Positions 24,945-25,778 of a stretch of 64,000 bases of DNA are shown here, piece after piece. Within the stretch, counting starts at the first letter, position 1. Every line of letters starts with the position of its first letter. The notes beneath the pieces are model-generated. The model saw only the letters and a list, made by a program, of their open reading frames with translations. It was not told the origin of the DNA and did not search any database. The DNA is from Scheffersomyces stipitis CBS 6054 (lineage: Eukaryota > Ascomycota > Pichiomycetes > Serinales > Debaryomycetaceae): NCBI RefSeq assembly GCF_000209165.1, contig NC_009044.1, positions 1,178,001-1,242,000 on the forward strand, read 5' to 3'. A program made the translations under genes and the position numbers.

Positions 24945-25778
24945 CTAACCATTAATCTGGTTCTTGATAAAATCGTCCAACCAGCTGAAATCCAAGTCAT
25001 CAGAATAGAAGTCCTCATCTTCCATATTTGACTGTAAGAAGCTCTGGTTTATTATATTTTCGGAGTCCAGTTCGAATGGCAACAACAGCGTTGGATTTTG
25101 CAAAGGCGTCGAATCTGTCACTGAGGAGCTGAGATTGTCAGACATTGGACTTGAAACCAACAGTAAATCCAATGGGTCTGTTGAATTTAACACTGCAGCC
25201 GTCTCGTTGTCCTGTGCTATATTCAACATTTTCTTACGGGCTAAGTTCTTTTTCGTCTCTATTATGGGCACGGGAAGGAGATTTGTAGGGTTCTGCTTTA
25301 TCTCTTTGCATTTTAGATAGAACTTCCGGGGTGTCATATTGGTGTAGTTTTTGAACTGTCTACATAGATGGAATTTAGATATTTGGAGCTGTGCTGTCAA
25401 GACATCCAAGACAAAAGGCTTAGAAGCACTGGCGGTCTTGAAAATGGCTGTGCAAGCTCTGATAATCAATTCCCTCGTGGTGTTGCTGCCCCTTTCCACA
25501 TTAGGTTTGCATCTTTTGCACGGCTTGAAGTTCATGGCTCTTGCTTCATCTGAATTTTTACAGAAGCTGACGTTCTTCCGCAATGCCAACCTTGAATAGC
25601 AAGTAGGACGAGAGTATATTTTCGTACTAAGCACGCAGTAAACAAATTCGCCTTCTGCTCGGGGGTCTCGGTTTACAAGTGCTTGCCATTTTTCATCGTC
25701 CGTGTCAAACATGATAGATGTAGTATCATGAAGAATTTTTTTAGTAGGTATGTGAATTGAGGTCTTAGTGGTGACCAA
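24945..25778 (-). CDS. Ada-like zinc domain plus AraC-type HTH protein with acidic tail
   Basis: A 277-residue protein built like the N-terminal half of bacterial Ada/AdaA. Residues 31-92 form the Ada metal-binding domain: WQALVNRDP, GEFVYCVLSTKIYSRPTC, ALRKNVSF and FKPCKRCKP. In Ada the first Cys of IxCRPxC is both a zinc ligand and the acceptor of methyl groups from DNA phosphotriesters. Here that position is Ser56 (codon TCT); Cys60, Cys87 and Cys90 are kept and a Cys appears at 48. Residues about 118-155 match one AraC helix-turn-helix. There is no O6-methylguanine transferase domain. The C-terminus is acidic and aromatic (EDEDFYSDDLDFSWLDDFI), like a yeast activation domain. A second Met at 23 fits the Ada N-terminus and may be the start. 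It is likely a transcription factor derived from an acquired Ada gene; this role is inference. Confidence 0.8.
   Translation of the reverse strand: MVTTKTSIHIPTKKILHDTTSIMFDTDDEKWQALVNRDPRAEGEFVYCVLSTKIYSRPTCYSRLALRKNVSFCKNSDEARAMNFKPCKRCKPNVERGSNTTRELIIRACTAIFKTASASKPFVLDVLTAQLQISKFHLCRQFKNYTNMTPRKFYLKCKEIKQNPTNLLPVPIIETKKNLARKKMLNIAQDNETAAVLNSTDPLDLLLVSSPMSDNLSSSVTDSTPLQNPTLLLPFELDSENIINQSFLQSNMEDEDFYSDDLDFSWLDDFIKNQING

Follow-up and report, generated by a model that had tools for sequence, protein, structure and literature searches.

The window analysed here is a stretch of 64,000 nucleotides of the yeast Scheffersomyces stipitis CBS 6054 (contig NC_009044.1, positions 1,178,001 to 1,242,000 of the forward strand). 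On its reverse strand it carries the gene of an Ada-type regulator, i.e. a protein joining an Ada zinc-binding domain to an AraC-type helix-turn-helix (HTH). In this protein a Ser stands where Escherichia coli Ada has its methyl-accepting Cys, and on the sequences compared this loss comes on top of older, eukaryotic-looking additions shared with relatives that keep the Cys. The features of the gene are the following, in window coordinates.

24945..25712, minus strand: coding sequence of the Ada-type regulator, an ATG-to-stop open reading frame of 255 amino acids, identical to a database protein (P0002, 255 amino acids)
25503..25694, minus strand: Ada_Zn_binding domain (PF02805), residues 7-70, by profile match (29-92 of the 277-residue reading) and fold match to 1u8b/1wpk/1adn
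25611..25613, minus strand: codon 34, TCT, Ser at the position of E. coli Ada Cys38 (the methyl acceptor), by alignment and codon reading
25599..25601, minus strand: Cys38, a retained zinc-ligand position (Cys42 in Ada), by alignment
25518..25520, minus strand: Cys65, a retained zinc-ligand position (Cys69 in Ada), by alignment
25509..25511, minus strand: Cys68, a retained zinc-ligand position (Cys72 in Ada), by alignment
25293..25487, minus strand: AraC-type HTH, residues ~76-140, by sub-threshold PF00165 match and predicted structure
25230..25268, minus strand: basic motif PIIETKKNLARKK, residues 149-161, by its core pattern
24945..25061, minus strand: acidic-aromatic tail, residues 218-255, by composition, with a terminal predicted helix at 243-254 (block predicted local distance difference test scores, pLDDT, of 75 and 65)

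The reading frame is intact from ATG to stop. The earlier note on this DNA, made from the letters alone, placed the end of the gene at 24945, which we retain, and its start at 25778, which we correct to 25712; the protein shortens from 277 to 255 residues and the Ser56 of that note becomes Ser34. With a PF02805 score of 95.7 bits, against a curated cut-off of 23, the protein belongs to the Ada zinc-binding family, as the note had recognised, and it is the sole match to this profile reported genome-wide. The note had also read a single AraC HTH, and the predicted fold of this region indeed matches one, despite profile scores below the cut-offs (23.4 bits against 26.6 for PF00165, 17.3 against 33.6 for PF12833). 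Its statement that there is no methyltransferase domain holds as well: the bifunctional Ada profile NF011964 scores 118.9 bits against a cut-off of 345 and matches residues 3-131 only. An out-of-frame ATG lies at window position 25729, 17 bases upstream of the start codon, and might open an upstream frame overlapping the start.

The alignment to E. coli Ada is gapless through the four-Cys region, residue n of the window protein being residue n+4 of Ada. The Cys required at the Ada Cys38 position of a methylphosphotriester acceptor, in Ada as in AdaA, is thus absent (Ser34, TCT), and the three other zinc Cys are present (Cys38, Cys65 and Cys68), exactly as the note had described. We tallied 127 proteins, the window protein and 126 others among the matches listed; the best 120 of 1,394 matches of the profile search entered this tally and every row was kept. 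All 126 others have Cys at the four zinc positions and the window protein alone has Ser at the first. The four Cys were also found in all 80 bacterial loci kept from a pattern survey, a count biased by the fact that one of the two patterns demanded the acceptor Cys. Within the yeast group described below the acceptor Cys is kept in 25 of the 25 other members, including the protein most closely related to that of the window, P0003 of Scheffersomyces xylosifermentans. Judged by the relatives listed, Ser34 is private to the S. stipitis lineage since its split from S. xylosifermentans. The earlier note had seen in the loss of the acceptor a part of a wider adaptation. This is not supported: S. xylosifermentans and 24 further clade members have Cys, and the acceptor residue of close relatives, which the note had singled out as decisive, makes the loss a private one among the relatives listed.

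A private residue may also reflect a strain polymorphism or a sequence error, and here TCT and TGT differ by a single base. Yet an identical protein of 255 amino acids, Ser34 included, is found in the database on a second contig, which has 1,767,139 bases and may stem from a re-assembly or from a different isolate; the window, with its RPN12 protein (P0129), belongs to the longest contig, of 1,803,401 bases. This makes an assembly error unlikely, and we consider polymorphism and error together very improbable. A second isolate of S. stipitis, Y-7124, differs in chromosome sizes according to the part of PMC8546629 at hand. An artefact of the genetic code at codon 34 was rejected, since the codon is TCT.

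The yeast relatives put this loss in context. In a quick tree of 55 of the 127 proteins (the 26 of the yeast group and 29 hand-picked others, with no bootstrap), the yeast-group proteins make up one side of a branch with a Shimodaira-Hasegawa-like approximate likelihood ratio test (SH-aLRT) support of 100, and the window protein pairs with P0003 with a support of 98. Species names are attached to four of the 26 group members, i.e. S. xylosifermentans, [Candida] anglica, [Candida] railenensis and Meyerozyma sp. After the HTH, all 26 carry the core motif P-x-[IV]-x-[TS]-[KR]-[KR], which is found in none of the 101 homologues outside the group; the motif was defined on the same 26 sequences in which it was counted. 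From its T onward there are 3-7 K/R within 14 residues across the 26 members. By its place in the group and by its motif the window protein is a yeast Ada-type protein, and the basic motif looks like a nuclear-localisation signal.

The acidic-aromatic C-terminus that the note had pointed out is there, and it may be activation-domain-like. We searched beyond the HTH for a 30-residue stretch with a net acidity of at least 5 and at least 6 W/F/Y/L/M, thresholds that were chosen after the values were known, and found one in 22 of the 25 Cys-keeping members, P0010, P0011 and P0041 being without; in P0003 it is found close to the C-terminus. Such a composition is only weakly diagnostic, as the best 30-residue stretch of the window protein (19) ties for first with that of one of 19 other proteins of the window, the rest scoring 10-18, and comes second among the 20 when aromatics are weighted (21 against 25). 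That the tail was gained together with the loss of the Cys is rejected by its presence in 22 of the 25 Cys-keeping members. Because Cys-keeping yeast members carry both the basic motif and the tail, these are older than the loss. Hence, the suggestion of a bacterial-type sensor turned eukaryotic transcription factor survives in part: the tree, the motif and the tail agree with a sensor module bearing eukaryotic-looking additions, but the additions are not tied to the loss of the Cys. To judge from these sequences, the acceptor was lost after a methyl sensor of bacterial type had acquired its eukaryotic-looking parts. This adaptation at the level of the family is a sturdier finding than the locked-on state discussed below, which is a testable proposal.

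In Ada, S-methylation lowers the charge of the zinc site, and Ser, like S-methyl-Cys, adds no negative charge; the title of He et al. 2005 reportedly names an electrostatic switch. The Cys-keeping relatives most probably work as Ada does: their zinc-bound Cys would take up the methyl of a methylphosphotriester in DNA, methylation would raise their affinity for DNA, and the tail would then activate transcription. In S. stipitis, methyl capture at residue 34 is unexpected because the acceptor is now Ser34. With a neutral Ser or water in place of one thiolate, the charge of the zinc site should go from roughly -2 to roughly -1, just as it does on S-methylation, and on the likeliest reading the protein would bind DNA unmethylated. 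We therefore lean, tentatively and with a little less than even confidence, towards a DNA-binding regulator that is in or near its on-state and no longer needs methylation; that it binds zinc and DNA, enters the nucleus and activates transcription, and that it is in the on-state at all, we infer. The fuller claim, that one Cys-to-Ser change, by mimicking the methylated zinc site in its charge, made a natural locked-on Ada, a constitutive activator, atop the older adaptation of motif and tail, is possible but rather doubtful. According to the part of PMC10957082 at hand, E. coli Ada is activated by methylation of Cys38, and a Cys-to-Gly replacement in this domain gives a constitutively active protein (He et al. 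2005, as cited there).

One might speculate that a methyl group is still accepted, at Cys26 or at Cys38 of the window protein, with the zinc site completed by Ser34 or water. Cys26 is predicted to lie on a strand neighbouring that of Ser34 (strands 24-27 and 32-34), and Cys38 occupies a zinc-thiolate position. Yet Cys26, the Cys48 that the note had offered as a possible zinc ligand, is found in 15 of the 25 yeast members that keep Cys34 and is absent in 10; it is not tied to the loss of the acceptor, and this makes capture at another Cys less likely. Methylation of Ada Cys38 is also the sole event named as activating E. coli Ada in the part of PMC10957082 at hand. We regard this explanation as improbable. 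Compensation for the lost acceptor by Cys26 is not supported, on the same count.

Several observations weigh against a regulator in or near its on-state. The replacement reported for the constitutive form of Ada is Gly and not Ser, as far as the available part of PMC10957082 goes. The replacing residue matters, to judge from Cada2 of Caulobacter, in which a Gly substituted for another Cys was activating and an Ala abolished activity; constitutive Cada2 gave an advantage under methylation damage and a growth cost under mitomycin C (PMC10957082, in part). Within the protein, Trp76 (codon 76, window 25485-25487), kept in all 25 other members, is a Ser, which makes a second private change. We also counted changes in the manner of Tajima, as unique to the window protein/unique to its sister P0003, with five hand-picked outgroups. 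The HTH region (10/3, 8/4, 9/2, 8/4, 4/4) has an excess on the side of the window protein with two of the five (10/3 and 9/2; chi2 of 3.77 and 4.45), and may be evolving somewhat faster.

The other counts were 4/5, 4/6, 4/6, 6/3 and 3/6 for the zinc domain, 1/3, 2/3, 3/2, 3/1 and 3/1 for residues 141-160, 22/19, 18/23, 17/14, 19/12 and 16/19 for the whole protein, and 13/17, 10/16, 14/16, 20/14 and 19/13 for the control RPN12 with its own five outgroups. They reveal no relaxation or excess change of the zinc domain relative to the sister. The protein evolves fast overall, with 50% identity to the sister compared with 81.5% for RPN12, whose nearest named match is also that of S. xylosifermentans; its terminal branch in the quick tree is 0.46, against 0.30 for P0003. 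Among the columns invariant in the other 25 yeast members it differs at 2 of 28 (C34S and W76S; 0-2 in other members), and with a 90% threshold at 3 of 43 (0-6 in the others).

A recent loss of function is quite possible, and only slightly less likely than the on-state: phosphotriester sensing would have become dispensable, the acceptor mutated, and the protein would be drifting or inert. An open frame in which 2 of 28 invariant columns have changed, a zinc domain that is not accelerated, a motif and a tail that are kept and the Ser of the identical protein from another contig are at odds with this scenario. Yet it would account for private changes at both the sole acceptor residue and Trp76, and for the excess in the HTH region, and the genome retains a repair protein of the MGT1 type in which PCHR is intact (L002, at L002:1465-2049, 194 amino acids). 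The gene may also be patchy among these yeasts, a weak argument for loss: no listed Ada match is named C. albicans, C. dubliniensis, C. maltosa, L. elongisporus or Spathaspora, most matches being nameless, whereas RPN12 matches with these names are present in the same database. Should Ser34 be no more than decay, the finding on the family would stand, and S. stipitis would offer a knock-out of sensing made by nature. If instead the protein is in the on-state that we tentatively favour, a locked-on Ada would put the electrostatic-switch model to a test in nature. In either case the yeast family apparently couples an alkylation sensor to eukaryotic-type activation, which could confer an Ada-like adaptive response.

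The window protein shares with E. coli N-Ada (PDB 1u8b, 1zgw, 1wpk) the zinc domain and AraC HTH, the gapless four-Cys alignment and the predicted fold, but differs from E. coli Ada by the Ser at Cys38, the lack of the C-terminal O6-methylguanine methyltransferase half and the added basic motif and acidic tail. Bacterial AdaA regulators (e.g. P0029, AdaA of Lysinibacillus pakistanensis) also combine zinc domain and HTH without methyltransferase, but have the acceptor Cys and lack the yeast motif. P0061 of Stereum hirsutum FP-91666, possibly SaraC itself, likewise has the acceptor Cys and no yeast motif. SaraC comes from a basidiomycete, S. hirsutum, and the paper on it, available in part, is the single one on a fungal Ada-type regulator that our literature search found (PMC9769804). 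The part of PMC4437013 at hand mentions neither Cys38 nor fungi, and that of PMC10957082 reports that no constitutive-on form of Cada2 occurs among 1,000 genomes. By title or abstract opening we found no paper with the window gene as its topic; most subscription papers fall outside such a search, and a prior report in print is possible. Alkyltransferase-like (ATL) proteins have likewise lost the acceptor Cys from a repair fold and retained DNA binding, according to the part of PMC10779285 at hand, but their domain (PF01035) and their Cys are unrelated and this is an analogy only. A second, weaker PF01035 match of S. stipitis lies at L003:1477-1824 (contig C1, ~2047223-2047477); it spans 115 codons from stop to stop, has PWWR for PCHR, is ATL-like and is without NCBIfam match. 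Two alkylation-type proteins of this yeast, the Ada-type regulator and L003, thus appear to be without acceptor Cys.

The Ada-type gene has VPS28 and RPN12 as neighbours, all three within 4 kb (window 24945-28718). The Ada matches P0004 and P0007 are on contigs of exactly the same sizes (7,390 and 13,632) as those of the RPN12 matches P0161 and P0171, for a rough expectation of 0.08, and P0003 shares a chromosome-sized contig with an RPN12 match. These shared contigs suggest that the Ada-VPS28-RPN12 locus is old and shared, with vertical descent and conserved order. The RPN12 of L. elongisporus (P0181) is 66% identical to that of the window. Further along, a frame at 34268-35221 has repeated INQIGDGQIQHQT units and presumably resembles yeast PIR cell-wall proteins. 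A MutS-family protein with MutS domains I, II, III and V, which we take to be MSH3-like, is encoded at 54238-57315, ~28 kb from the Ada gene.
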